Assembly (NCBI RefSeq): GCF_000025885.1
Contig: NC_014011.1
Coordinates: forward strand, 930,001-994,000
Reading direction: 5' to 3'
Length of the DNA: 64,000 bases
From: Aminobacterium colombiense DSM 12261
GTDB taxonomy: Bacteria; Synergistota; Synergistia; Synergistales; Aminobacteriaceae
Position 1 is the first letter of the stretch, and every line of letters begins with the position of its first letter. Shown piece after piece: positions 3,967 through 63,040 of this stretch. A program made the position numbers and the translations under genes. The notes below the pieces were generated by a model that saw only the letters and a program-made list of their open reading frames with translations, ran no database searches and was not told the origin of the DNA.

Positions 3967-6306
3967 CTACCTCCGCTCCAGAGCTATGTCAAAAACTTCT
4001 GACACATTGTCAACAAAATAGAAGGAGAGCCCCTTAGTGACCCACTGCTCCATTTCCTCTACATCTATGCGGTTGGCGCCAGGAATAATAATGTTGCTAA
4101 TTTTTTGACGTTTTGCAGCCAGAATCTTTTCTCGAATGCCCCCTACCGGCAGAACTTTTCCCTGAAGAGAGATTTCACCCGTCATTGCTATCCCTGGAAG
4201 CACCTGTCTGCTGCTCAAAGCTGAAAGCATGACTACAGCCATGGTTATGCCTGCAGATGGCCCATCTTTTGGAATTGCTCCCTCTGGAACATGAATATGT
4301 ATATCCTGGTTTTTCCAGTTTATGTGGTCCAGACCTAGTTCGGCGCTACGGGCTCGCAGAAAGCCAAGAGCCGTCTGAGCTGATTCCTGCATAATATTCC
4401 CCAAATTGCCAGTGAGTATAATATCGCCCTTTCCAGACATGGCAACGGCTTCGATAACGAGGACATCTCCGCCGCTTTCAGTCCATGCAAGACCCACAAC
4501 CGTGCCTTTTTGTTTGTTTTGAGGAAGCTGCACATCGTAGAGCCGTGGCGCTCCCAAATAATCCTTCAGGTCTTTTACCCCTATTGTAATCTTTTTAAGG
4601 GTAGAGTCTTTTCCCTCTCTTACTATTTTAAGCGTTACCTTTCTACAGAGAGTGGCCAGGCTCCTTTGAAGATTGCGAACTCCTGCTTCCCGCGTGTAAT
4701 CCCTAATAGTTTTCTCCACTGTTTTCGAAGTAATGCTTATCATTTTGTCTGTCAATCCATGTTCTTTGAACAGCTTAGGCAGCAGATGCTTCTTCGCTAT
4801 GTGAATTTTTTCTTCGGCAACATACCCCGGCAATCGGATAACTTCCATTCTGTCCAGCAATGGTGCAGGGATAGTATGGGTTACATTGGCAGTAGTGATA
4901 AAAATTACATTGCTCAGGTCAAATGCCGATTCGATATAATGATCAGTAAAATTGCTATTTTGCGCCGGATCAAGAACCTCTAAAAGAGCTGATGCGGGAT
5001 CGCCTCTAAAATCCTGTCCGATCTTATCGATCTCATCCATTAGCATAATAGGATTTTTAGTGCCAGCTTGTCTCATTTTCTGTATGATTCGCCCTGGTTG
5101 AGCTCCCACGTAGGTTCGGCGATGACCGCGTATTTCCGCTTCATCCCGTACTCCGCCAAGAGAAAAGTTAACAAAGCGGCGTCCAAGGGCCCGCGCTATG
5201 GATTGCGCGAGAGAAGTTTTTCCTACTCCAGGAGGTCCTACAAAACAGAGAACCTGTCCTTTCGCCTCTTTTCCTGCCAATTGACGAACCGCCAAAAACT
5301 CAAGAATGCGTTCTTTAACCTTTACAAGGCCATAATGATCTTCATCGAGTATTCTTTGTGCCTTTGTAATATCCAGGTTTTCTTCTGTATAGGTATTCCA
5401 AGGTAATGCCAGAAGCCAATCCAGGTAGGTACGTAATACACTGGCTTCAGAAGAAATAGGAGGCATTTTTGAGAGCCTGTCAACTTCAATACGGGCTTTC
5501 TTGCAGACTTCTTCCGGCATCTCAGATTCTGCTATTTTTTTAAGAAGATTTTCTGTTTCTGATGAAAAATCCTCTTCTCCCAGTTCCGTTTGAATGATTT
5601 TCAGTTGCTCTCTAAGGTAATATTCACGGTGCCCCTTTTCCATTTTTTGACGTACTTGTTCCTGTATCGATTGCTCTAGCTCCATCAGCTCTATTTCTTC
5701 CATCAAAATTTTGATGAGAAGCTTAATATATTTTTCTGGATTAGTGATACTCAATAGTTTTTGTTTCTTTTCTGTTTTTATTTTCAAATGAGACGCAACC
5801 ACATCTGCAATATCGCAGGGGTGCTCAATGTTTGCAAGTGAAACGATAACCTCTTTTGGAATTTTTGCATTTATTGACACGTACTTTTCGAAAAGCTCAA
5901 GAACACTCCGTTTCAGCGCTTCCATGTTTTCTGGAAGTGCTGAAACCCACTGCACGATTGCAATATTACCCTGAAAGGTTTCTTCGTCTTCAAAAAATTC
6001 CCTGATACGCCCCCGCTGTTTTCCTTCTACAAGAATTTTTACTGTGCCATCGGGGATGCGAATCATTTGAAGCACTTTGCATAGTGTTCCTATGGTGTAG
6101 ATATCTTCAGACATAGGTTCTTCTGTTGTTAAATCTTTTTGAGCTACAACAAAAAGGGGTTTATCTTCAATACTTGCTTTTTCAATCGTTTTTAATGAGC
6201 GGGGTCTTCCTATATATAGAGGGACTATGACCCCTGGGAAAAGAACAAGATCACGTACAGGCAGAATATAACATCGTTCTGCCTGTACCGATTCCGTTAT
6301 TGTCAC
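3967..6306 (-). CDS. lon: ATP-dependent protease Lon (LonA type)
   Basis: Cytoplasmic AAA+ serine protease for damaged and regulatory proteins. An N-terminal LAN substrate-binding domain (residues ~1-200) and helical linker precede the AAA+ module with Walker A GPPGVGKTS and Walker B IMLMDEID. The C-terminal protease domain has the catalytic serine in PKDGPSAG and the catalytic lysine in GGIREKILAAKR. At 779 residues it is full length. The ATG at 6306 is immediately adjacent to the clpX stop, so translation is probably coupled. Confidence 0.97.
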   Translation of the reverse strand: MTITESVQAERCYILPVRDLVLFPGVIVPLYIGRPRSLKTIEKASIEDKPLFVVAQKDLTTEEPMSEDIYTIGTLCKVLQMIRIPDGTVKILVEGKQRGRIREFFEDEETFQGNIAIVQWVSALPENMEALKRSVLELFEKYVSINAKIPKEVIVSLANIEHPCDIADVVASHLKIKTEKKQKLLSITNPEKYIKLLIKILMEEIELMELEQSIQEQVRQKMEKGHREYYLREQLKIIQTELGEEDFSSETENLLKKIAESEMPEEVCKKARIEVDRLSKMPPISSEASVLRTYLDWLLALPWNTYTEENLDITKAQRILDEDHYGLVKVKERILEFLAVRQLAGKEAKGQVLCFVGPPGVGKTSLAQSIARALGRRFVNFSLGGVRDEAEIRGHRRTYVGAQPGRIIQKMRQAGTKNPIMLMDEIDKIGQDFRGDPASALLEVLDPAQNSNFTDHYIESAFDLSNVIFITTANVTHTIPAPLLDRMEVIRLPGYVAEEKIHIAKKHLLPKLFKEHGLTDKMISITSKTVEKTIRDYTREAGVRNLQRSLATLCRKVTLKIVREGKDSTLKKITIGVKDLKDYLGAPRLYDVQLPQNKQKGTVVGLAWTESGGDVLVIEAVAMSGKGDIILTGNLGNIMQESAQTALGFLRARSAELGLDHINWKNQDIHIHVPEGAIPKDGPSAGITMAVVMLSALSSRQVLPGIAMTGEISLQGKVLPVGGIREKILAAKRQKISNIIIPGANRIDVEEMEQWVTKGLSFYFVDNVSEVFDIALERR

Positions 6307-7602
6307 TTATGCTACCTCCTCTTGCCCCTTAATTTTTATTATGGGAGAAGCTCCTTTTTCGACCACTTCTTTTGTAATAATAATCTTCTCCACTTCATTG
6401 GAGCGTGAAGGTATTTCATACATAAGATCAAGCATGAGATATTCCATGATGGATCTTAGGCCACGTGCGCCGGTGTTTTTCTTGCGCGCCTCTTTCGCTA
6501 TGGCCTTGATAGCGTCCTGTTCGAAGAAAAGTTTCACACCCTCTATTTCAAAGGTTTTTTGATATTGCCGGATCAGAGCATTCTTGGGCTCCACAAGAAT
6601 ACGAGCCAGGGCATCATCATCTAATTCTTCGAGCGGAACAACAACGGGAAGACGTCCTATGAGTTCGGGGATAAATCCAAAAGCCATAAGGTCTTCAGGC
6701 TGCACCTGACGCATTAGCTCATAGTTTCGGTGCTCTTTCACGCTGAGAATATCCCCGCCAAAACCAATCATCTTCTTATTGACTCTTCGCCCTATAACCT
6801 CTTCAATTCCTGCAAAGGCCCCGCCGCAGATAAAAAGGATATTAGACGTATCCATCTGTATGAAGTCCTGGTATGGATGTTTTCGTCCGCCCTTAGGAGG
6901 AACATTGGAAAGTGTCCCTTCCAGAATCTTTAACAATGCCTGTTGTACCCCTTCTCCAGAAACGTCTCGTGTTATCGAAGCAGACTCAGACTTTCGTGTT
7001 ATCTTATCAAGCTCATCTATGTAGATAATTCCTCGCTCCGCCGCTTGAATATCATAGTCTGCGGCCTGCAAAAGGCGAACAAGAATATTTTCTACGTCTT
7101 CACCCACGTATCCGGCTTCAGTAAGGGTTGTAGCGTCGGCCATGGCAAAGGGAACATTCAATTTTTTGGCTAGGCTTTGTGCTAAAAGGGTTTTGCCAGA
7201 ACCTGTTGGCCCTATAAGTAAGACATTGCTCTTTTGCAGCTCAATGTCATCATTCTCTTCGCTCATGGTGCTAATTCGCTTAAAATGATTGTATACGGCT
7301 ACGGAAAGGATTTTTTTTGCGTCTTCCTGTCCAATAACGTACTGGTCGAGAAACTTCTTAACCTCAGCGGGTTTAGGAGTGTCTTTTAAGGACACGTTGA
7401 AAACGTCGCTTCCCTTGACAGAGTCGCCGCCAACTTCATCATTTAGAATTAGATTGCACAAGTGGATGCACTCATCGCAAATGTAGACACCTGGCCCAGC
7501 GATAAGTTTTCTTACCTCATTTTGTTCCTTCCCGCAAAAAGAACAACGCAGGGTGCCTTTATTTTCCCCTTTACCTTTGTCTTCAAATTTAAACATACAC
7601 AA
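6307..7602 (-). CDS. clpX: ATP-dependent Clp protease ATP-binding subunit ClpX
   Basis: AAA+ unfoldase that feeds substrates to ClpP. The N-terminal zinc-binding domain is intact (CSFC, then CDEC at about residues 20-43). Walker A is GPTGSGKT, Walker B is IIYIDELD, and the sensor/arginine region LDRMEVI-type motifs are in place. An IGF-type ClpP-docking loop (KKMIGFGG) is visible. The length of 431 residues is usual. It follows clpP with a ~95-base gap that holds a small hairpin, and directly precedes lon. Confidence 0.97.
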
Positions 7603-7635
7603 ACCTCCTTAAAGCCGGGGGCGTGAAACAGAAAG

Positions 7636-7663
7636 AAGGGAGCACCAATACACGGGCTCCCTT
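7636..7663 (-). terminator. Hairpin between clpP and clpX, possible weak terminator or attenuator
   Basis: Two perfect 8-base arms (AAGGGAGC and GCTCCCTT) enclose a 12-base loop. On the minus strand the arm is followed by a pyrimidine-rich but interrupted stretch (CTTTCTGTTTC), so termination would be partial. The position between clpP and clpX suggests it trims readthrough and sets clpP mRNA above clpX mRNA. This is inferred from sequence only. Confidence 0.5.
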
Positions 7664-7696
7664 GTCGAAATCCGCAGGCAGAAACTCTGGGAAAAT

Positions 7697-8278
7697 CTAA
7701 ACTCTAGATTCGATGACCTTATCGATGATGCTGTATTCAAGCGCTTCTGCAGCTGACATGTAAAAGTCTCTGTCCGTATCAGCCTTAATTCTTTTTCGAG
7801 TTTGCCCCGTGTGTTTGACAAGTATATCATTGATCTTTTCTCTAATCTTGAGAATTTCTTTTGCATGAATTTCAATATCTGTCGCTTGTCCATGAGCGCC
7901 TCCAAGGGGCTGATGGATCATAACTCTTGCGTTAGGCAGAGCGATCCGTTTACCAGGCGCACCTCCTGCGAGAAGTACAGCAGCCATGCTTGCTGCCTGT
8001 CCAATGCAGATCGTGGATACAGGACTTTTGATATATTGCATCGTGTCGTAGATAGCAAGTCCAGAAGAAATCACTCCTCCAGGGCTGTTGATATAAAGAT
8101 GTATATCTTTATCTGGGTCTTCGCTTTCAAGAAAAAGAAGCTGGGCAACAACAGTGTTTGCTATGGGATCATCAATTTCTTGTCCCAAAAAGATAATCCT
8201 ATCTTTTAGAAGACGGCTGTAAATATCATACGCCCGCTCCCCTCTTCCAGACTGTTCTATAACCATAGGTATAAGCAT
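7697..8278 (-). CDS. clpP: ATP-dependent Clp protease proteolytic subunit ClpP
   Basis: Self-compartmentalising serine protease that forms the tetradecameric chamber used by ClpX. The catalytic triad is visible: Ser in GQAASMAA (~residue 97), His in MIHQPLGG (~122), and Asp in the DRDFYMSA segment (~171). At 193 residues it has normal length. It lies between tig (45 bases upstream) and clpX, the standard tig-clpP-clpX order. Confidence 0.97.
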
Positions 8279-8323
8279 GTATTTTCACCACCTATCTTAC
8301 TAATACTTCAAAGACAGATCGTT

Positions 8324-9694
8324 CTATTCGGCCTGTTCTGCGATGTCCTCTTCAGTGTTTTTTTCCAAGGACGAAAATTTTTCCACTTCTTTAATGGAAA
8401 CTTTGCTCAAAAGCTCTTTCGTTGTCTTTTTGTAACGGATCCGGCTCCCCATTTCCATAACTCTGTTCTGATCTTTAAATACTGATCTCAACAAAGTATC
8501 GGTGCTTATATTATACGCTGTTGCAAGGGGTTCTACTTCAGATTCAAAGTCCTCTTTTTCAATGGAAATATCAAAGGATTCTGAAAGAGCATCGAGAACA
8601 AGATACTGACGAACTGCCCGCTCTGCCTGGTCTTTAACTCTGCTTTCATAATCTTCCAGTTCCATTCCAGATTCTGCTAAAATTTCTTCCATGGTCTTGT
8701 TAAATCTTTTTTGCGCATTTTCAGTGTCTTCCTTTTTAATATGCTCAATCTGTCGATTAATCAAAGTTTCTGGAAGCTCAACTTCCGTTTTATCTGCCAC
8801 TTTTGCAACAGCTGCATTTTCAGCCATGGTATCGCTTTCTTGGGTCATGCGGTCCACCAGGCGATTCTTTACCTCTTCACGAAAAGCTTCTTCACTGTCT
8901 ACAGAATGCCCTAAGGTCTTTTCAAAGAAAGCCGCTTCCAATGGCGGTAATTTCTTTACCTTTATTTCTTTGATAGACATATCGTACCGAATCTCTCTTC
9001 CCGCAACCTCTGGATCAGCATAGTCCTCTTCTACCTGAACAGTTGCTTCAACTTTTTCGTTGGCGACATGCCCTTTTAGTGCCTCTTTAATTCCAGGTCT
9101 CAAATCCTGAAGGCCAAGATCTACATTGACTGTTGCCGGTTCATGGGATTTTATAATTTCCCCTTCTTCGTCAAGAACGTTTGTAACGTATTCTATTTCC
9201 ACAACATCGTCATCTTCTACGGCCCGGTCAACTTTTTCGTGTTCCGCATTTTGTTTCTGCATGTTCTTGATTGCTTCATCCACCATTTCGTCAGTGACGT
9301 TAACCTTTAATTTTTCTATCTCAATGGTTTCAAGCTCAGGCAGTTTAACTTCAGGCGCAACCTCAAAAGTCAAAGTGAGAAGAACATCCTTTCCCTCTTC
9401 GAGCTTTTCTATTTCCATTTCTGGCTGGTCGATAAGGTCTAATTCATAATCTTTAACGATCTGGTCAATGGTATCAGGCATAATAGATTCAAGGGCTTCT
9501 ATAAGGATACCCTCTTTTCCAACTCTCATCTCCAAAATATTACGAGGGACTTTCCCCTTTCGGAAGCCTGGAACATTTATTTTCTGGGTCAGTTCACGAA
9601 CAGTCATATTTATGCTTTTTTGAAATTCTGTGACCTCTAACTCTACCTTTATAGTGACGAAATTCTTTTCCTGAGATACAAGCTCGGATCTCAT
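8324..9694 (-). CDS. tig: Trigger factor, ribosome-associated chaperone
   Basis: Binds the ribosome exit tunnel and shelters nascent chains. The ribosome-binding signature GFRKGKVP is at about residue 43. A central PPIase-like domain (~150-245) and a long helical, acidic C-terminal arm region follow. At 456 residues it is slightly longer than most, because of an acidic C-terminal tail ending in EEDIAEQAE. It is the first gene of the tig-clpP-clpX-lon-engB-valS-folC run and has its own upstream promoter-like sequence. Confidence 0.95.
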   Translation of the reverse strand: MRSELVSQEKNFVTIKVELEVTEFQKSINMTVRELTQKINVPGFRKGKVPRNILEMRVGKEGILIEALESIMPDTIDQIVKDYELDLIDQPEMEIEKLEEGKDVLLTLTFEVAPEVKLPELETIEIEKLKVNVTDEMVDEAIKNMQKQNAEHEKVDRAVEDDDVVEIEYVTNVLDEEGEIIKSHEPATVNVDLGLQDLRPGIKEALKGHVANEKVEATVQVEEDYADPEVAGREIRYDMSIKEIKVKKLPPLEAAFFEKTLGHSVDSEEAFREEVKNRLVDRMTQESDTMAENAAVAKVADKTEVELPETLINRQIEHIKKEDTENAQKRFNKTMEEILAESGMELEDYESRVKDQAERAVRQYLVLDALSESFDISIEKEDFESEVEPLATAYNISTDTLLRSVFKDQNRVMEMGSRIRYKKTTKELLSKVSIKEVEKFSSLEKNTEEDIAEQAE

Positions 9695-40712: not shown

Positions 40713-42488
40713 TTATATTTTTTGCTCTCTTATTTTAGTTACTACAGATTTGTAATTTTCCTCAGAGGGCTCATATTTTTTACTCCAACACTCTACAAGT
40801 TTGGGGTCTTCACTCGTCGGTCTTGGATTGTTCAGTTTTACTCTTATTCTGGATGGTATCTTGATTGATTCACCAACAATAACAGCCTCACCAATCCGCA
40901 AAGAAGGCAACAAGTCTATCAAACTATTTAAATTGTCTGGAGATGATGATTTAACAATAGATTGATCCCCTGAATTTGTTAAACGTAAAGCTATTAGCGT
41001 TCCAACTTGAGCAAGGATGGTTTCTGAAATTTCAGAAGGTCTTTGAGATATGACTAATGCCCCAACCCCAAACTTCCGACCTTCTTTAAAAATTCGTTCA
41101 ACAGCGTTTTTCGAATAACTGTTATTATCATTCTTGTTTAAATAAGTATGGGCTTCTTCGTAAGCAAGCAAGAGCGGGCGATTTTTTCCAGTATAAGACT
41201 CATATTTTCCCCAATACATGCTGTCATAGACAAATCTTGTAATCAATCCAATCGCAATATCCAATACTTCAAAAGGGACTCCGCTAAGATCAAGTATGGC
41301 CAATTTGTTTTCACTGCCTATCCATTCATTCAACAAATTATGCAAGTCTTTTGAGGATGATGCATCTTTGTAATCACCAGGGTGAAACATAAAATTAAAT
41401 CTGGAATCTTTAAGACGTGCTAAAAGCTTTTTTTCATATGAGTAAAAATCTTTATGCTGGCTTACATGTGGGGGTTGATTGTTGGCCGTAGTCAAATGGG
41501 AGGTAAATTCTGCTCCAATAAGATTTTCATAATCACCTTTATTTATTTCATATTTAGTCTCTCGCTTTTGTTCATCTTTTTTTGTCGATTCAAAACTTGC
41601 ATTCAGCCACCAATTCATTTCATACCATAATTTACGGGCACTAAAAGGAATTGGAGAATCCGCAGTAATAAACTCTTGAGTCACATCACCTGACTTTAGT
41701 TTACAGTTTTCCTTCTTAAATGTTGTTATTAACTCTCGTAATAAACGATACTCTACCCTCTGATCATCAGTCGGCTTCGCACCAACAAGAAAAAAGGCTA
41801 ATTCATCAAAATTCATCAACCAAAACGGGATATATAAAGGGTTAGAAGGGGCATTTATTCTGAAAACTTTTGCACTAGGAAAGGCAGAAGCATATTCACC
41901 ATGTGGGTCAATTAAAATCACTCTTGAGCCATCATAATCGTTTAATATTGCTCTTAGTATGCTAACAGTAGTATTTGACTTCCCACTACCTGTTGAACCT
42001 AAAATGGCGCAATGCCGTAATATCAGTTTATGGATATCAACATAGACACTCAAATTATCCGAAGAAGAGTGTTTCCCTATTTCAATAGAGCCAGCATCTT
42101 TTCCCCCATATATGTCAAACAAGTCTTTTTCAATTACCAAGTGAACCTCATCGTTAATTGTTGGGTAGGTACCAATGCCCTTCTCAAAATCATCATCGCC
42201 AATTTTTTCTCCAACAAGCTGGACACTCAAAAAACGAGACCCAACAATTTGACCTATTATATTTTCATCACTTTTCCCTGGGGTATTGCTAACAGAAGAT
42301 ACTATTCCATAGGTTGTAATATTGCCCATTGGCATTTTTACAAAAGTACCTATCTGTCCAATTTTGTACAAACGACCATTAATTATTGGTGCAGCGGAAG
42401 GGATATCATCCGACACCTCGACCTCGACAGTGCTTGAGTCCACCCTAATTATTTTCCCGAGGTATGTTATTTCACTGTCCACTTGCAA
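40713..42488 (-). CDS. herA: HerA-type hexameric ATPase/helicase of a SIR2-HerA defence pair
   Basis: 591 residues. An N-terminal HAS-barrel (residues ~1-110) precedes the ATPase core with Walker A GSTGSGKSNTT (~residue 165) and VILIDPHGEY. A long insertion (~270-370) is followed by Walker B LLAYEEAHTYL and a sensor region VISQRPSEI. HerA-family FtsK-like ATPases are DNA translocases. Here the start overlaps the SIR2 gene 3' end by 17 bases, so both are co-translated. SIR2-HerA pairs are known antiphage systems (Nezha). Confidence 0.9.
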   Translation of the reverse strand: MQVDSEITYLGKIIRVDSSTVEVEVSDDIPSAAPIINGRLYKIGQIGTFVKMPMGNITTYGIVSSVSNTPGKSDENIIGQIVGSRFLSVQLVGEKIGDDDFEKGIGTYPTINDEVHLVIEKDLFDIYGGKDAGSIEIGKHSSSDNLSVYVDIHKLILRHCAILGSTGSGKSNTTVSILRAILNDYDGSRVILIDPHGEYASAFPSAKVFRINAPSNPLYIPFWLMNFDELAFFLVGAKPTDDQRVEYRLLRELITTFKKENCKLKSGDVTQEFITADSPIPFSARKLWYEMNWWLNASFESTKKDEQKRETKYEINKGDYENLIGAEFTSHLTTANNQPPHVSQHKDFYSYEKKLLARLKDSRFNFMFHPGDYKDASSSKDLHNLLNEWIGSENKLAILDLSGVPFEVLDIAIGLITRFVYDSMYWGKYESYTGKNRPLLLAYEEAHTYLNKNDNNSYSKNAVERIFKEGRKFGVGALVISQRPSEISETILAQVGTLIALRLTNSGDQSIVKSSSPDNLNSLIDLLPSLRIGEAVIVGESIKIPSRIRVKLNNPRPTSEDPKLVECWSKKYEPSEENYKSVVTKIREQKI

Positions 42489-43671
42489 TTACCTCGATGT
42501 TTTCTTTTTTCCCGGAGTTTGTGATTAGGAAATTTATGAAATGATTAAAATCGCCGAGCTTTAAACAATTATTTGTCTCATCCCAATAACTCTCTGATTT
42601 GTCATTTTGGTTCAAGTCGTCTTCTTTATACTCCCATTCACCAAGTGTTCCGTTGATAATTGCTTTAGTTGGTCCAAAAACAGTCAAATTTAGAAATGGC
42701 GAGGATACCTTATATAATTCCTCCACTTCTGAATCTTGGTAAAAGAAAACCAAAATAAATAATCGATTATTTTGTCTTAGTGAATTGAATGCTATTTCGT
42801 TGATATGCTGATCGGAAAATGAATATCCAGTAAAGATAAAAAGACGTTCTCCGCCTAAGAGGAAATTTTTGAATCGATCAAAATAAGCGACAAATGGTTG
42901 TTTTTGGGAAGAATCGTATTTTTCCTTAGATGGATAAATAACAAGCTCATTATCTAAATTTTTAATGTCTGAGATTTTCCCAACGCGGACTATATTATGA
43001 GGATTGCAATCACTATTTTTTTTCCAAAACCAACTAAAAGAACCATGTATCTTCCATAGCCGAATCCAATTCTGTGTTAAATCTGATTTTTCTACAAATC
43101 TATCTATACTTTCAGGCCAGAAAAACGGTTCATAAGATCCAACGAATCCATCAAAGTATGGGGTACGTATTGCCTCTAAGGATTTCTCAATAATTAAATC
43201 ATAATTGGATGTGAAGATTTCTTTTGAAAAGTCCCTGTTCTGCATATTTAACCAAGCAAAGAATTTCTTGGTATTTGAAAGATCGACAGTCTCTTCGCTT
43301 TTGCTTATTATTTCATATATTTGTTTGCAAATTTCATTATCAAGATCTGTTGCTAATTCTCCACTTATATCTAAATAACTTTTATCACCTCTTTCTCCAG
43401 TTATTGATCTGATTTGCCGCAACTGGTTAAGAATGTCTTCAATATTTATAGTTTTGTCTGGGTATATAGAATCAAGTTCATCTTTGATTTTCTTAAAATT
43501 AGCTTGTTGGTCATCTTGTAGAGCGCTTTCTACACCTGTTGTCAAAGTAGCTATATTGGGGACTCCTAAAGCACAAGATGTACCAGCCCCAAAAAAGAAG
43601 CCATATTTTTTAGAATAAGAGAGCTGGTTCTTTAGTTCTCGAATTTCTCTTACGAGATTAAATTTGACCAT
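42472..43671 (-). CDS. SIR2-like NADase of a SIR2-HerA defence pair
   Basis: 399 residues. The N-terminal SIR2-like domain carries the NAD-binding motif GFFFGAGTSCALGVPNI (~residues 24-40), TSNYDLIIEKSLE (~175), WKIHGSFSW (~225) and a FTGYSFSDQHINEI segment (~275). The last is the aspartate/histidine catalytic region in SIR2 effectors. These proteins deplete NAD+ when a phage activates the complex. The ATG follows AAGGAGAT. It lies at the head of the herA-KTSC unit. Confidence 0.88.
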   Translation of the reverse strand: MVKFNLVREIRELKNQLSYSKKYGFFFGAGTSCALGVPNIATLTTGVESALQDDQQANFKKIKDELDSIYPDKTINIEDILNQLRQIRSITGERGDKSYLDISGELATDLDNEICKQIYEIISKSEETVDLSNTKKFFAWLNMQNRDFSKEIFTSNYDLIIEKSLEAIRTPYFDGFVGSYEPFFWPESIDRFVEKSDLTQNWIRLWKIHGSFSWFWKKNSDCNPHNIVRVGKISDIKNLDNELVIYPSKEKYDSSQKQPFVAYFDRFKNFLLGGERLFIFTGYSFSDQHINEIAFNSLRQNNRLFILVFFYQDSEVEELYKVSSPFLNLTVFGPTKAIINGTLGEWEYKEDDLNQNDKSESYWDETNNCLKLGDFNHFINFLITNSGKKENIEVIASGQ

Positions 43672-45384: not shown

Positions 45385-45965
45385 TTACTCCTCCTTGGAT
45401 TTCCAATCTCTTGATAATTTCAGTGCTTTTCCTATCAAGCTGACTGTTATTCGTTTACTCACTAAGCTTCTCATTCGCAGAATTTCTTCACCATTTGCTT
45501 TTGTAGCAGGAAGGTTAAACCACATGTACGCCAGGGGTATTTTGCGCACAAGCATTACCTTGTTCAGCGGCCTTCTGATACCAACAGTTCTGGCAGCTTC
45601 ATTCAATATTCTGTAAGCCTGTACCCTTGTGATAGCTCCATTTCCTTTCTTGGACTGGAACAGTGGCAATTCACTTTCAGTTTCAACATTCTCCATGTAT
45701 TCCTGAATGGCCTTCCTAGCATTTTTACCAATGGGAAAGTCTTTCGATTTACCTGTTTTCTTTTCACGCATGCTGATACGATCCCTTACATTGCCTCTGT
45801 CATCAATCACATCAGATACCTTCAGCGCAAGCAGATCAGACACTCTCAGTCCCGAATTGATACCAAGCACGAATAACACAAGTAATCTCTCGCTTTATGG
45901 TTCTTGAGAATCTTCTTTATGCGTTCTATGACCTTTCGATCCCTTATAGGCTGTACAAATTCTAT
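45385..45965 (-). pseudogene. Decayed tyrosine recombinase (site-specific integrase)
   Basis: The 3' part (45385-45879) encodes FVLGINSGLRVSDLLALKVSDV, the box-I arginine region of phage-type integrases. Upstream, another frame gives IEFVQPIRDRKVIERIKKIL and ARDYL, so a frameshift lies near 45880. An AGGAGG ribosome site is 8 bases before ATA (45963-45965), where ATG would be expected. The C-terminus lacks the usual HxxR and Tyr boxes and looks scrambled. It is a dead copy. Confidence 0.72.
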
Positions 45966-46140: not shown

Positions 46141-46190
46141 CCTCTTCCTTGCATCCTCTTTCACTGTGACTTAATATTCTTGTGGACGCA
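46141..46190. repeat. Left copy of a 50-base imperfect direct repeat
   Basis: About 80% identical to 46791-46840, with a perfect 17-base core (TCACTGTGACTTAATAT). The two copies bracket the Ala/Tyr-rich secreted-protein gene and lie next to decayed integrase genes. They could be recombination boundaries of a ~650-base cassette. Confidence 0.55.
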
Positions 46191-46229
46191 GTTTTGAAGT
46201 AGTTTTCTTAATAGGAAGGTGATCGCTTG

Positions 46230-46667
46230 ATGAGGAAATTATTCTGTATTATGTTTCTTGTCCTCTTATGTTCCATCCCTGCTCATGCCAATGTATCTGA
46301 TGCGCAAGATTATTTATATCAAGCTGCTAGTGCCGCTCAGGAAGCCTGCTCTTATGCAAGAAAAGCTTATTATTACGCATCTGACCTTGAAGAAATCCAA
46401 TATTATTCTCGAAAAGCTATGCGAGCTGCTGAAGAATCAGAATCTTATTGTGGCTTGGCTATCGATGAACTTTACGGTGCTAACATGGATGATGCGATTA
46501 TGCATACTGAAGACGCAGCATCATATGCTTATTCCGCATATCGATATTCAAGACAAGCCTATCAGTCTTCGGAATATGATGATGCACAATATTATGCCCG
46601 AAAAGCTATGAACGAGGCATCTTATGCTGAAAGCTCTGCTTGTGATGCCGCCAGTGAATGCGAATGA
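46230..46667 (+). CDS. Secreted Ala/Tyr/Ser-rich helical repeat protein
   Basis: 145 residues from ATG at 46230 after AGGAAGG. The signal peptide ends around SIPAHA (residue ~20). The mature part is an internal duplication of ~55 residues: EEIQYYSRKAMRAAEESESYC in the first half matches DDAQYYARKAMNEASYAESSAC in the second, with YARKAYYYASD-type helices before each. It has several Cys (disulfides possible) and very high Tyr. No family is recognised. It resembles extended alpha-helical coat or spacer proteins. An own terminator follows. Confidence 0.72.
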   Translation: MRKLFCIMFLVLLCSIPAHANVSDAQDYLYQAASAAQEACSYARKAYYYASDLEEIQYYSRKAMRAAEESESYCGLAIDELYGANMDDAIMHTEDAASYAYSAYRYSRQAYQSSEYDDAQYYARKAMNEASYAESSACDAASECE

Positions 46668-46724
46668 TTATTATTAGGATTTTCTCTCGCTTTTAATCAA
46701 TTCCGGACCATCTGGAAAGAAGAA

Positions 46725-46756
46725 GGATCCAGCAGACTTCCAACACTGCCGGATCC
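46725..46756 (+). terminator. Terminator after the Tyr-rich protein gene
   Basis: Arms GGATCC-A-GCAG and CTGC-C-GGATCC with a 10-base loop, then TATGTCTTTT. It lies 58 bases after the stop. Confidence 0.65.
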
Positions 46757-46790
46757 TATGTCTTTTCAATCAACATTTACTCCCCCTCTT

Positions 46791-46840
46791 CCATTTCCTT
46801 GCATATTCTCTCACTGTGACTTAATATTTTAATGGACTCC
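46791..46840. repeat. Right copy of the 50-base imperfect direct repeat
   Basis: See the copy at 46141-46190. It lies directly beside the 3' end of the next decayed integrase gene (46848). Confidence 0.55.
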
Positions 46841-46847
46841 AGGGGTA

Positions 46848-47710
46848 TTACCTTCCACCAACCCGTCCCAGTCTTCCTGACATCCCACATTCAAGCATAT
46901 TCACCGGACTCGCCTTGGCATGCTGTTTCTGTATATCTTCCTGGGTCAACGCCAGATATCTCTTCGTCATATCCAGTGTACAGTGGCCCATTAACCGTTG
47001 AAGTACAAATACGTTTCCACCGTTACGAAGAAAGTTAAGAGTGAAAGAGTGTCTTAGATCGTAAGGCTGTACCTTGAAACCAATTTGCTTTGAGTACATG
47101 TTCATACGCTGCGACCATGTCTCCGTCTTCATGAACCCAGCTTCCCATGTGCAGAAGATAGGTACTTCGTCGTCCCATTGCTCGGGTCTGGCGGTTACGG
47201 GCTCTTACATATACTTCCAGGGCATCCAGGTTTATAACTCCTTGCAGTAATGAAAGACATCTTATTCCAGTGTCGAGAGTAAGAAGTATAACTGCATGGC
47301 CCCGCAGTTCGTGGATCTGGCTGCTTGAGCAGGCTTTGCAATATATGGATCGGTATATTGACGATGCGTGGTTCTTCTCTGCGCCTTGTAAGTCTATTTG
47401 TGGGGTTGGACCGCAGGAAGTCTTCCATGATGCACCAATCGAAGAAGTGTCTAAGGTAGACAAGACGGAGGTTGTAGGTTTCGGGCATTACGGGTCTTGA
47501 TAGATAGGAAAGCAATGAAGGTTTGAGTTTATCATTACTCCAGGCATCCGGATAGGCAGTAAAGAAGGCTGTGATGTGACAGTCGTAATCGTAGATAGTT
47601 CTATCTGAAAGGCCCTGAGCACGCATGAATGACAGGAACTGGCTCATTGCTTCGGTCCAGGTGGAAGATACCTGTTGTGGCTTTGATTTAAGTGATTTGA
47701 GGCGCGGCAT
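46848..47710 (-). pseudogene. Decayed tyrosine recombinase related to the intact one at 56.9 kb
   Basis: Three frames together give one recombinase. The N-terminal core-binding domain (47195-47710) has GLSDRTIYDYDCHITAFFTAYP. Box I is in a second frame (TLDTGIRCLS, within 47035-47463). Boxes II/III and the catalytic Tyr are in a third frame (46848-47132: VQPYDLRHSFT, LMGHCTLDMTKRYLAL). Two frameshifts kill it, and box I reads GIRCL instead of GIRP. Like the intact recombinase it has Tyr where the usual box II histidine stands. Confidence 0.82.
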
Positions 47711-47750
47711 GGATGAACACTCCTTTCATAAATATTGAAGAGAAGGTGAT

Positions 47751-48149
47751 ATGTTGGTTAAGGAAAAAGAATTCGAAGAAAAAAACGTTTCATATTACTC
47801 CGTACTGTTACATGCTTGGATTGATTCGAATATGGAATATGACAAGACCTTGATCAGTCTTTCTTCATTAGGAATAGCTTTATTAGTAACAATACTGTCT
47901 ACTATCAAGCCCAGTTCTTGGTGGATACTTGCTTCTTGTGTTATCTCTTTCTTCGGCTTTGGAGCGTGTATCTGGATTTGTCTCACCATATATTTAAAAA
48001 ATACTGATCATATCGAAAATCTATTGCACGATAACCAAGACCCGAGATTAAGCTTAAAGCTTGTACAGTATGACAAGAGATCTAAAATGTCGTTCGTTTT
48101 GGGAGTTATTGGTTTTTGTTTGGCCGGAATAATTTCGGCTTTAAAGTAA
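47751..48149 (+). CDS. Small multi-pass membrane protein
   Basis: 132 residues. Three predicted transmembrane segments lie at ~36-52, ~57-82 and ~112-130, with a charged N-terminus (KEKEFEEKN) and a cytoplasmic-type linker HIENLLHDNQD. Membrane helices surround a short helical hairpin. No family recognised. It precedes a 55-residue hydrophilic gene by 22 bases and the DUF6765 gene beyond. The spacing suggests one unit. Confidence 0.65.
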   Translation: MLVKEKEFEEKNVSYYSVLLHAWIDSNMEYDKTLISLSSLGIALLVTILSTIKPSSWWILASCVISFFGFGACIWICLTIYLKNTDHIENLLHDNQDPRLSLKLVQYDKRSKMSFVLGVIGFCLAGIISALK

Positions 48150-48171
48150 ATTATCTAGGGAGGTATGACTC

Positions 48172-48339
48172 TTGAGTGACAATTCGAATACAAGGAATAG
48201 CAACAACCCAAAAGTGGAAAGAAAAAGCCTTGCCGGACTTGAAAATCTGAGGCCAGAGAATTGCACGAGCAATAATACAGGCAATACTTCTCAAGATTCT
48301 TCTTCAAGTTCCAATCAGAACAGTAGTGAAAATGAATAG
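48172..48339 (+). CDS. Small Ser/Asn-rich hydrophilic protein, 55 residues
   Basis: TTG start at 48172 with AGGGAGG 8 bases upstream. The sequence begins MSDNSNTRNSNNPKVER, has a central KSLAGLENLRPENC core, and ends in a Ser/Asn/Gln-rich tail (QDSSSSSNQNSSENE). It is disordered-looking with one Cys. It follows the membrane protein by 22 bases and precedes the DUF6765 gene by ~145 bases. No family recognised. The strong ribosome site supports translation. Confidence 0.6.
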   Translation: MSDNSNTRNSNNPKVERKSLAGLENLRPENCTSNNTGNTSQDSSSSSNQNSSENE

Positions 48340-48483
48340 CAATGAAAATCTGATCATATGCATTTCCTTTTTTTGCCTGGAAAAAGATATTCATTAAGAC
48401 CTGGATTTGAGAGATTTGCGACGAAGCATAGATGATCACTCCTTTCTTTGCTCTTGGATTATCAATTAAGGATGGTGATACAT

Positions 48484-49689
48484 ATGCAAGAGGATTTTCA
48501 CTTTTACACGACCTATGTCTTATGCAGATGCAATGGCTTACCTCATGACAAGGCAAAGATAATAGCTTATTCATCGCAACAGGTTGACGATGCAAAATAC
48601 GGACATGAACTGGAATTCAAGGAAGGTGGGCGTTTTCAACAACAGATGACAGCTCACAAATATGTTCATCCCAATATTCTCAACCTCAAAACCCAGTATG
48701 AGATATACGGAACCTTCCATTTCATTCCAGGCAACAGGCAGGATAGAAGGAATCCTGATGGAAGTGTTCCATTCAGGCATAGAATGCTCTGCACTGCAAA
48801 TAGCGAAGTATCGCAAGAGGTCTTCGAGCATGTGTACCAGCAAAAGAAAGAACCAGATTTCTTACACTCACTGGGAATAGCTTTACATGCCTATGCTGAC
48901 ACCTGGGCTCACCAGGACTTTTCTGCGTTGTTCAAGTTCGAAAAAGGAAACAAGATGAATGATGCAAATCATGTCAAAGTCTGGAATAAAACAGATCAGT
49001 GTTTCGTCCCATATGAACCTGGAGAGACTACATTTGATCAAGTATGTGGAAGAATGCAACGACTCAAAAATTACCTGCTGAATAAATTCGAACTGATGAA
49101 GATGGGTCATTGTCAAGTTTATACATTACCTGATGAACCTCATCGGAAGTGGAAATATTATCATCGCTATTCCTATCAGCATCTTGAACGAGATAATGTG
49201 GGAATCTATCTTGAGGCAAGCAACGCTATTTACGGACAGTTACAAGACCTGTTTTCAAGGCAAGGACTAAGACATCACATAACAAAACCCATTATTGACT
49301 GGAAGGATATCAAGGAGCCATTACACGAGTGCTTTTCATATGAGGGTACCCTTGAAAAGAGAAACAATAATTGGATAAAGGCTATCGAGACTGGAGAATT
49401 CGGATTCACTATACTTAATAGACCGTTAGATTCATTAGAGTATGATAGAAAAGAATGGTTCGATGCAGCCGTTGAAATTGAACCTAAAAAGTCTCGCCTT
49501 TTTGACAAGAAGAGATTTAATTGCTTTTTGCTTTACGGTAGACCTTATCACCCCAGCTTAAAGGAAACCTACTCAAGAAAAGATGGTTTTCTCTCTTCAG
49601 ACTGGAAATTATTCCATGATGCTGCCAGGAAATACAAAGATTTCTTTATTCATAAACTGTTACAAAAGTATGGGATGATCTGTGGGTAG
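48484..49689 (+). CDS. DUF6765 family protein
   Basis: About 401 residues starting MQEDFHFYTTYVLCRCNG, an N-terminus characteristic of the DUF6765 family. The ATG at 48484 follows AAGGATGG; an ORF start 12 codons earlier lacks one. A metal-binding-like motif LGIALHAYADTWAHQDFS (~residue 130) resembles zinc-dependent hydrolases of the phospholipase C / S1-P1 kind. No signal peptide. The substrate is unknown; the family occurs in accessory regions. It is the last gene of a three-gene unit. Confidence 0.7.
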   Translation: MQEDFHFYTTYVLCRCNGLPHDKAKIIAYSSQQVDDAKYGHELEFKEGGRFQQQMTAHKYVHPNILNLKTQYEIYGTFHFIPGNRQDRRNPDGSVPFRHRMLCTANSEVSQEVFEHVYQQKKEPDFLHSLGIALHAYADTWAHQDFSALFKFEKGNKMNDANHVKVWNKTDQCFVPYEPGETTFDQVCGRMQRLKNYLLNKFELMKMGHCQVYTLPDEPHRKWKYYHRYSYQHLERDNVGIYLEASNAIYGQLQDLFSRQGLRHHITKPIIDWKDIKEPLHECFSYEGTLEKRNNNWIKAIETGEFGFTILNRPLDSLEYDRKEWFDAAVEIEPKKSRLFDKKRFNCFLLYGRPYHPSLKETYSRKDGFLSSDWKLFHDAARKYKDFFIHKLLQKYGMICG

Positions 49690-49772: not shown

Positions 49773-49862
49773 CTCCAGCCTATCGATAGGTTGGAGCCAC
49801 TTTTTCATGTGCGCCTAGCATGGGCGCACATGAAAAAAGCCAAGCCCGGAATAGACTTGGCT
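49773..49862. terminator. Three successive hairpins after the DUF6765 gene
   Basis: Hairpin A is 49773-49796 (CTCCAGCCTATCGATAGG-type palindrome). Hairpin B is 49801-49837, with 15-base perfect arms bearing T5 at its start and A-runs at its end (a bidirectional terminator). Hairpin C is 49838-49862 (AGCCAAG / CTTGGCT). The trio lies between the DUF6765 gene and a decayed minus-strand gene and would stop both strands. Confidence 0.65.
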
Positions 49863-56652: not shown

Positions 56653-56729
56653 TGGAGCGGGAAACGGGATTCGAACCCGCGACCTACGGCTTGGAAGGCC
56701 ATCGCTCTAGCCAACTGAGCTATTCCCGC
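56653..56729 (-). tRNA. tRNA-Gly (anticodon UCC)
   Basis: 77 bases with encoded CCA. Anticodon stem ATGGC/GCCGT with loop CTTCCAA gives TCC (GGA codons). Its 5' part, from the 5' end to the T-arm boundary (56682-56729), lies in the 133-base repeat bounding the downstream element. It is the first gene of the array, and a sigma-70 promoter lies 36 bases upstream of the tRNA. Confidence 0.94.
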
Positions 56730-56814
56730 TCGTTGCAACGAAGTTCTTTCGTTCAGCACGGGAAATACTACCATATGACCAGCATTCCTGCAACCATTTT
56801 TTGTGACTTATTTA
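56682..56814. repeat. Left 133-base direct repeat of the tRNA-Gly element
   Basis: Perfectly identical to 62908-63040. It contains the tRNA-Gly 5' half including the anticodon, plus 85 bases upstream of the tRNA with its promoter. It marks the boundary of the integrated element. Confidence 0.9.
56765..56793 (-). promoter_or_regulatory. Promoter of the tRNA-Gly/Arg/His/Arg/Lys array
   Basis: TTGCAG (56788-56793) and TAGTAT (56765-56770) with a 17-base spacer on the minus strand, 36 bases before the tRNA-Gly 5' end. It lies within the 133-base repeat, so a second copy is present in the right repeat. Confidence 0.65.
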
Positions 56815-56922: not shown

Positions 56923-57858
56923 ATGTCTGGAAACGTGGCAAGGCTCTTTAAAACTGAAGAAACATGGCAACAAGTCGTAGAACGGTATGTTTTGACAAGG
57001 AAGGCTGACGGACTAGCCCCTCGAACCGTTAAGGATTATCGATACCATCTAACACGGTTCTTTACCGCCTACCCTGAGGGGTTGAACCCCGACAAGGCTA
57101 AACGTTGCGTTCTTGAGTATATGTCACTCGAACGAAGCCCGGGGTATCACAATATGGTATTGAAGTACCTCAGGTGCTTTTTCCGATGGACTGTCAACGA
57201 AGGGATACTATACAGCAACCCCTGTAGCGGGATACGGAGTCGCAAAGCCCAGCCAAAGATAGCCCAGCATAGCCCCGACGTTGTGAAGGCCCTTCTCGCA
57301 CTCCCTGACCAAAGCACATATACGGGCTTAAGGAGTTACGCCCTGCTCCTGCTCTCTCTTGACACGGGGATACGCCCCCGGGAAGCCCTTTCCCTCCGTG
57401 TTGAAGATGTTTCCATTCCCGCCCGGGTCGTTGTCGTTCGTGCTGAAACAGCCAAGACAAGGGTACAGCGAACCTTGCCCATATCTGACCAGACAGCACA
57501 AGCCATCATGAAGCTTGTTTCCATACGCCCCAAGGAATGGAGAAACGCCCCTCTCTTCTGCTCACGGGACGGGCAACCCCTCCGTGTCAATTCGTGGTAT
57601 CACACTGTCAAAGGGTATGGAGAAAAGATAGGGGCTGACATTACGCCTTACAGCTTGCGTCACCTGTTCGCCCTCTACTTCTTGAGGAACAACGGCAACA
57701 CCTTTGCCCTTCAACGGATTATGGGACATGACAACCTCGACACCACAAAGATATATGTAGCCCTTGCCCAGTCTGACCTTGAGGAACAACACGAACTGGC
57801 AAGCCCGGTCAATGCATTATTCCCTAAACGACAAAGACTCGGGAAGATAAGGGACTAG
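56923..57858 (+). CDS. Tyrosine recombinase (integrase) of the tRNA-Gly element
   Basis: 311 residues. The N-terminal SAM-like core-binding domain has GLAPRTVKDYRYHLTRFF. Catalytic boxes are box I LDTGIRPREALSLR (Arg), a Lys in AKTRVQRTLPI, box II TPYSLRHLFA (Arg; Tyr takes the place of the usual His), RIMGHDNLDTTKIY (box III His and the nucleophilic Tyr) and ALAQSDLEEQHELASPV. The ATG follows GGGAGGG. The gene lies ~108 bases from the repeat, as integrases usually do. Confidence 0.92.
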   Translation: MSGNVARLFKTEETWQQVVERYVLTRKADGLAPRTVKDYRYHLTRFFTAYPEGLNPDKAKRCVLEYMSLERSPGYHNMVLKYLRCFFRWTVNEGILYSNPCSGIRSRKAQPKIAQHSPDVVKALLALPDQSTYTGLRSYALLLLSLDTGIRPREALSLRVEDVSIPARVVVVRAETAKTRVQRTLPISDQTAQAIMKLVSIRPKEWRNAPLFCSRDGQPLRVNSWYHTVKGYGEKIGADITPYSLRHLFALYFLRNNGNTFALQRIMGHDNLDTTKIYVALAQSDLEEQHELASPVNALFPKRQRLGKIRD

Positions 57859-62907: not shown

Positions 62908-63040
62908 ACCTACGGCTTGGAAGGCCATCGCTCTAGCCAACTGAGCTATTCCCGCTCGTTGCAACGAAGTTCTTTCGTTCAGCACGGGAAATACTACCAT
63001 ATGACCAGCATTCCTGCAACCATTTTTTGTGACTTATTTA
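62908..63040. repeat. Right 133-base direct repeat with truncated tRNA-Gly
   Basis: Perfect copy of 56682-56814. It holds 49 bases of the tRNA-Gly 5' half (62908-62956) and the promoter upstream. No 3' half follows; the tRNA fragment runs into element sequence at 62907. Transcription here would yield a tRNA fragment, not a functional tRNA. Confidence 0.9.

Follow-up and report, generated by a model that had tools for sequence, protein, structure and literature searches.

A mobile membrane-protein duo beside an unrelated DUF6765 gene in an accessory island of Aminobacterium colombiense

Three adjacent plus-strand genes in the window, by which we mean the whole 64,000-nucleotide stretch of Aminobacterium colombiense DSM 12261 that was analysed, are two separate things: a mobile membrane-protein duo and a widespread gene, unrelated to it, whose product is probably a metal-dependent enzyme. 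The initial annotation had taken the three as one unit of unknown role. Its observation is sound, its reading as a trio is not, and the pair within the trio is the interesting part. Taken as a whole, the picture that we favour is a mobile membrane phage-defence effector with a regulatory tail, next to a mobile-element cytoplasmic metal-dependent phosphoesterase of the DUF6765 family; we would put the chances of this complete picture at about even.

Separation of the trio and the recombinase module

The three genes lie on the plus strand where the initial annotation had placed them (Table 1), and its descriptions of their products were borne out. The first product contains three hydrophobic stretches (residues 34-52, 59-77, and 113-131), as claimed for a three-helix membrane protein. 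The small Ser/Asn-rich protein has the TTG start ascribed to it, and GGGAGG is located 8 nt 5' of that codon. The third protein matched PF20551 with 291.7 bits (gathering score 26.6; E = 1.3e-86) over the full model, residues 1-325 of 325. For this gene we prefer an internal ATG start, since the resulting MQEDFHF aligns with MQIDFHH, the N-terminus of relatives. The placement in an accessory island with defence genes also proved right, as the adjacent minus-strand genes at 40713-43671, HerA (PADLOC, 1.1e-157) and SIR2 (2.4e-127), make up a defence pair of the HerA-SIR2 type. Two features had gone unmentioned, a broken recombinase on the 5' side of the trio and the 43-bp repeats between the duo and DUF6765.

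Table 1. Features of the trio and its surroundings (positions in the window).
Feature	Positions	Strand	Remark
XerD-like recombinase, C-terminal end lost	45385..45879	-	intact relative L007:5819-6385
R3a, 43-bp direct repeat, copy 1	46145..46187	+	3' side of recombinase
146-aa Ala/Ser/Tyr-rich ORF	46227..46667	+	N-terminal hydrophobic, signal-like segment; inside R3-flanked insert
R3b, copy 2 of R3	46795..46837	+	6/43 mismatches; 650-bp spacing
Tyrosine recombinase, in three pieces through frame changes	46848..47710	-	intact 317-aa relative L007:6620-7573
R5a, 43-bp direct repeat, copy 1	47685..47727	+	first codons, start, and RBS region of broken recombinase (read on -)
Duo gene 1, 132-aa three-TM protein, ATG start	47751..48149	+	unnamed mobile family
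Duo gene 2, 55-aa Ser/Asn-rich protein, TTG start	48172..48339	+	motif SLAGLENLRP
R5b, 43-bp repeat, copy 2	48404..48446	+	8/43 mismatches; right end of insert
DUF6765 ORF, TTG start, 413 aa	48448..49689	+	
DUF6765 (PF20551) protein, preferred ATG start, 401 aa	48484..49689	+	

Reciprocal profile searches spoke against the trio as one system. A duo profile built from eight relatives, with the window left out, was run against six-frame translations of 91 other DUF6765 loci and the window region; it found only the window protein (7.4e-29) and no duo member in any of the 91 loci. The DUF6765 profile recovered the window and L007 in a control search and found no DUF6765 gene in the 11 duo loci, which span 3 to 8 kb, so that a more distant DUF6765 gene would escape detection. 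The trio is rejected as a unit because of this mutual absence, and the neighbourhood analysis proposed for DUF6765 genes found no conserved association of all three genes in other genomes. What stood of the three-gene unit is its first part, as the genes for the membrane protein and the small hydrophilic protein are a conserved duo.

The closest syntenic relative, L007, comes from another Synergistales genome, and its DUF6765 protein is 76% identical. There, the XerD-like recombinase (5819-6385, minus strand), the tyrosine recombinase (6620-7573, minus strand), and DUF6765 (7616-8833, plus strand) are directly consecutive, and both duo genes are absent from the module. Homology between the window and L007 stops at the DUF6765 stop codon. 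We considered that the three genes might still function together, as a defence or toxin-antitoxin system that this lineage has put together recently. They share a strand and a single island with HerA-SIR2, gaps of only 22 nt (gene 1 to the 55-aa gene) and 144 nt (55-aa gene to the ATG at 48484) separate them, all three frames are open, and DUF6765 is under purifying selection relative to its nearest relative (dN 0.138, dS 1.156, dN/dS about 0.12). Nevertheless, the 0/91 and 0/11 counts, the L007 module without the duo, and the position of R5b, a remnant of a recombinase start, between the duo and DUF6765 make such a system very improbable.

The duo lies in a 719-bp insert between the R5 copies, of which L007 has a single one. 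A second small-gene insert (46188-46837) is located between the R3 copies, where L007 again has one repeat copy and no insert; the 146-aa ORF within it had no Pfam or PHROG match. In at least two Synergistales, DUF6765 travels with two tyrosine recombinases. For the direction of the event, a gain in the window or a loss in L007, we rely on inference; most likely, the duo was inserted between the recombinase and DUF6765 at the 43-bp site.

If the resident tyrosine recombinase carried out a site-specific reaction of cassette type, integron-like and with its site in the recombinase start, this would account for the order of divergent recombinase, site, insert, second site, and next gene. Two inserts, each with a 43-bp direct repeat around it and single copies in L007, are in line with such a reaction, as is the occurrence of duo relatives in arrays elsewhere. 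We nonetheless consider it unlikely. Comparable duplications of a recombinase start or end were absent from L007 and 15 other loci with recombinase relatives, five of which had matches of 14 to 25 nt, and R3 and R5 lack a common core, with 213 and 134 of 500 shuffles scoring as high. The repeats could also stem from homologous recombination of related elements, given that R5b corresponds to the start of another recombinase. Nor did the window copy look like an integron cassette, as R5 occurs only twice and the recombinase pieces score far below the integron-integrase cut-off.

Elsewhere in the window, a perfect direct repeat of at least 93 nt (56682-56774 and 62908-63000) overlaps a tRNA-like stretch and encloses ~6.2 kb, including an intact tyrosine recombinase (56923-57858). 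This segment is probably an integrated element with attL and attR.

The duo family and its settings

For the membrane domain we recovered eight distinct relatives, in Vibrionaceae, on a Shewanella plasmid, and on a prophage contig. Among 1112 ORFs, the leave-window-out profile had a single match, the window protein (4.2e-30). In BLASTP comparisons, gene 1 aligned with L175 (37% over 124 aa, E = 5e-20), the prophage protein P0011 (30% over 128, 6e-17), and the array protein P0009 (29% over 124 aa, 2e-14). The first lead was a weak match on the Vibrio parahaemolyticus plasmid pVPTW011 (29.5% over 94%, E = 0.02), the one credible record among 19 from a plasmid search at E ≤ 10; the rest were short matches, 17 in Rhizobium and one in Enterococcus. 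The follow-up from pVPTW011 yielded 8 of 247 Vibrionaceae genomes, a Shewanella baltica plasmid, and one viral contig (L181).

Single-protein searches with the membrane gene gave no credible match in 180 Synergistales genomes besides its own, and nothing credible in 29 DUF6765 genomes, 369 Gammaproteobacteria, plasmids at E ≤ 0.01, phages, or viral contigs. The one gammaproteobacterial match, L147, was discarded, as by eye it reads as a nucleoside-transporter-like protein. No duo member was found by tblastn in 50,697 phage records; the recombinase region and duo relatives, used as queries against plasmids and phages, had no match, and neither did L174 in a blastn of E. coli. The duo profile A4 matched 2 of 364 Gammaproteobacteria (L178 and L179), whose proteins form a sister family; its one match in 378 Bacillota (L180) was spurious. 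The sister proteins (L178:1444-1839 and L179:1315-1758) are small TM proteins with the pattern FDxAILTLSSSxLxLSLxxxKFVVP and without the tail. By eye, one is near toxin-antitoxin-like and restriction-type genes, and the other is 3' of an integrase. We found no name for the duo in Pfam, NCBIfam, PADLOC, or PHROGs; another name in print is possible. Rfam at gathering score had no match in seven duo loci, and on the window stretch it gave one tRNA and one chance miRNA match.

The 55-aa protein, which we take to be disordered, is the counterpart of a C-terminal tail that is fused in most relatives. Seven of the eight distinct relatives have the tail or a partner, which is hydrophilic and carries a motif of the type S-[ILVFW]-x-G-[AILV]-x-x-[ILM]. 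Membrane domain and tail are fused in L172, L174, L175, L177, L181, and L182. In L176 the tail is separate, as in the window, and the membrane gene is followed by two small ORFs. The tail is missing from L170, L171, and P0009, which have the membrane domain only, and is thus dispensable in some members. The loose motif, whose form was widened after inspection of the last two tails, occurs in 9/9 tails versus 14 of 1112 background ORFs, with P below 2e-4 in shuffles of each of the first seven tails. Five of these first seven contain the strict form S[ILVF]xG[AL]xx[LM]RP, which was derived from the same seven. With its RP end, the motif resembles S-hydrophobic-x-G-[AIL]-x-x-[LMI]-R-P; that end deviates in four of the nine tails (L175, L177, phage, and Shewanella).

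Array repeats flank the gene or genes in L170, L171, L176, and L177 (4/7 loci tested); they were absent from L172 and L175, and L174 has only one pair, upstream. In L176, the membrane gene and the two small motif ORFs make up one cassette between array repeats. We call these arrays integron-like by their repeat pattern. On the prophage contig L181, the only prophage occurrence, the fused duo gene begins 29 bp 3' of a CI-like repressor gene (phrog_4, 2.8e-31) on the same strand, and a CII-like gene (phrog_101) lies close by in divergent orientation. This place, directly behind the repressor, is the one that rex occupies in lambda.

The array and CI-adjacent positions led us to read the duo as a membrane effector, carried by lysogens or cassettes and paired with a regulatory peptide, that would most likely be directed against phages. 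The three-TM protein would act on the membrane in an exclusion or abortive-infection-like manner. The tail, fused or separate, would silence the membrane part or sense a trigger via its motif, and its release or modification would let the TM part disturb the membrane. PADLOC gave no match for the window protein and weak ones for relatives (2TM_IV 0.022, PycTM 0.051, CBASS 2TM effector 0.043). Another cassette or moron function, such as membrane stress, export, or a signalling peptide pair, has a substantial chance, if one short of even: cassettes carry diverse functions, and by eye no known defence gene stands out near most Vibrio duo loci. The Rex-like position in L181, the defence-island setting in the window, and the weak resemblance to 2TM and PycTM effectors speak against it. 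Our tentative proposal is an unnamed and widely mobile family of membrane effectors that protects from phages and is regulated by a short conserved motif, on a fused tail or a separate mini-protein. Its cassettes would use at least three kinds of vehicle, namely integron arrays, the immunity region of a prophage, and, in Synergistales, a site that flanks a recombinase. With members in arrays that resemble integrons, in a prophage, and in a defence island, and with no name in the four collections, the duo is a candidate for a phage-challenge test, and the sharp peptide motif points to residues worth mutating.

The DUF6765 family and its predicted chemistry

The first scans with the window protein alone as the query found no DUF6765 relatives. 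With an alignment of six sequences as the query, at least 522 relatives were found among at least 589 candidate stretches of genome contigs, indicating a large family. Nine residues are invariant in 51/51 aligned sequences: M1, H6, D35, H79, H135, D139, H143, H209, and D217. The HxxxDxWAHxD motif of the initial annotation was confirmed as HAYADTWAHQD, which holds H135, D139, and H143. Literature searches for "DUF6765" and "DUF6765 family protein" returned no papers.

The best 80 of these relatives were retained, a sample biased to close ones, and each neighbouring family was named from one representative. A radical-SAM activase family lies directly upstream of DUF6765 in 20 of the 86 neighbourhoods with the gene called, a glycyl radical enzyme family occurs in 27/86, and a GMC-oxidoreductase/hydrolase family in 10/86. 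An operon of glycyl radical enzyme, small second protein, radical-SAM activase, and DUF6765 was seen in Nitrosomonas and several delta- and gammaproteobacteria (L044, L049, L053, L066, L075, L113, L116, and others), and is often joined by a ~620-810 aa family with no Pfam match. Plasmids of Aeromonas, Vibrio, and Photobacterium (L004:7031-9074, L005:7061-9065, L006:7060-9065) carry a different trio, of a ~220-aa lipoprotein-like protein, a ~90-aa protein, and DUF6765, which adjoins a type I restriction system in Vibrio and is near ThiF/Mov34 genes in Aeromonas. In the window, terminator-like hairpins on both strands (49773-49862) follow shortly 3' of DUF6765.

The AlphaFold model built with the 51 sequences was of good quality, with a pLDDT of 84.3 and a pTM of 0.89. 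A Foldseek search of the PDB gave no match at E ≤ 0.001. When Foldseek's 188 chains were realigned with VIA-align, ranks 1-9 were all phospholipase C or S1 nuclease, with 151-168 aligned residues and Z of 7.0-5.5 (the tenth rank had 2.6), where Z under 8 can reflect a common arrangement. Residue 1 of the model superposes on the first mature residue of both enzymes. Trp21 is this first residue in S1 nuclease, where the N-terminus and His/Asp side chains bind the zinc ions (PMC5201275). The N-terminus and the invariant His/Asp of DUF6765 would probably hold a zinc cluster, and the protein would cleave a phospho-ester, possibly of a lipid.

On this model, DUF6765 is a probable cytoplasmic zinc phosphoesterase. 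The lack of a Foldseek match at that threshold, together with the probability of 0.1 in hhalign against one bacterial S1/P1 nuclease, leaves the relation to phospholipase C and P1 nuclease unproven, and hmmsearch against the PDB found no meaningful match. The same results, and the operons with glycyl radical enzyme and activase, fit a helical metal-binding protein of unrelated fold, with chemistry linked to glycyl radical enzymes or GMC oxidoreductases. We hold this to be possible, if doubtful, given that the top VIA-align rows all belong to one superfamily with the N-terminus in register and that the His/Asp set is invariant. The initial wording, "metal-hydrolase-like", is thus supported by the invariant residues and the phospholipase C/P1-nuclease-like model, evidence that is suggestive but not conclusive. 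If the phosphoesterase assignment is true, a family with hundreds of members gains a testable enzyme class, a cytoplasmic relative of secreted zinc phosphoesterases, with an active site to which the start methionine or the second residue would belong.

Comparison with known systems

The suggestive likeness of DUF6765 to the phospholipase C/S1-P1 nuclease superfamily lies in its best model matches, the register of its N-terminus, and its invariant His/Asp. DUF6765 differs in that it starts directly at the putative zinc-binding N-terminus, with no leader, and has no detectable sequence relation to the one bacterial S1/P1 nuclease compared. Within its own family, many loci are glycyl-radical-enzyme or GMC-oxidoreductase operons, whereas the window gene belongs to a recombinase module.

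Like the cassettes of Vibrio chromosomal integrons, duo relatives sit singly between array repeats in L170, L171, L176, and L177. The window copy differs from them, as no integron integrase or attC was found there and the repeat on either side of it is the start of a gene for a XerD/XerA-like recombinase. With the 2TM/SLATT and PycTM effectors of CBASS and Pycsar, the duo shares the size of a short TM effector and the weak PADLOC matches of two relatives; it has no clear match to them, no cyclase or sensor gene was noticed adjacent, and its Ser/Asn/Pro tail carries a motif of its own. Compared with lambda RexAB and other lysogen-expressed exclusion systems, the window copy lies outside a prophage, no RexA-like partner was noticed, and the duo sequence and tail motif differ; the likeness is in L181, where the membrane-protein gene directly follows the gene of a CI-like repressor.
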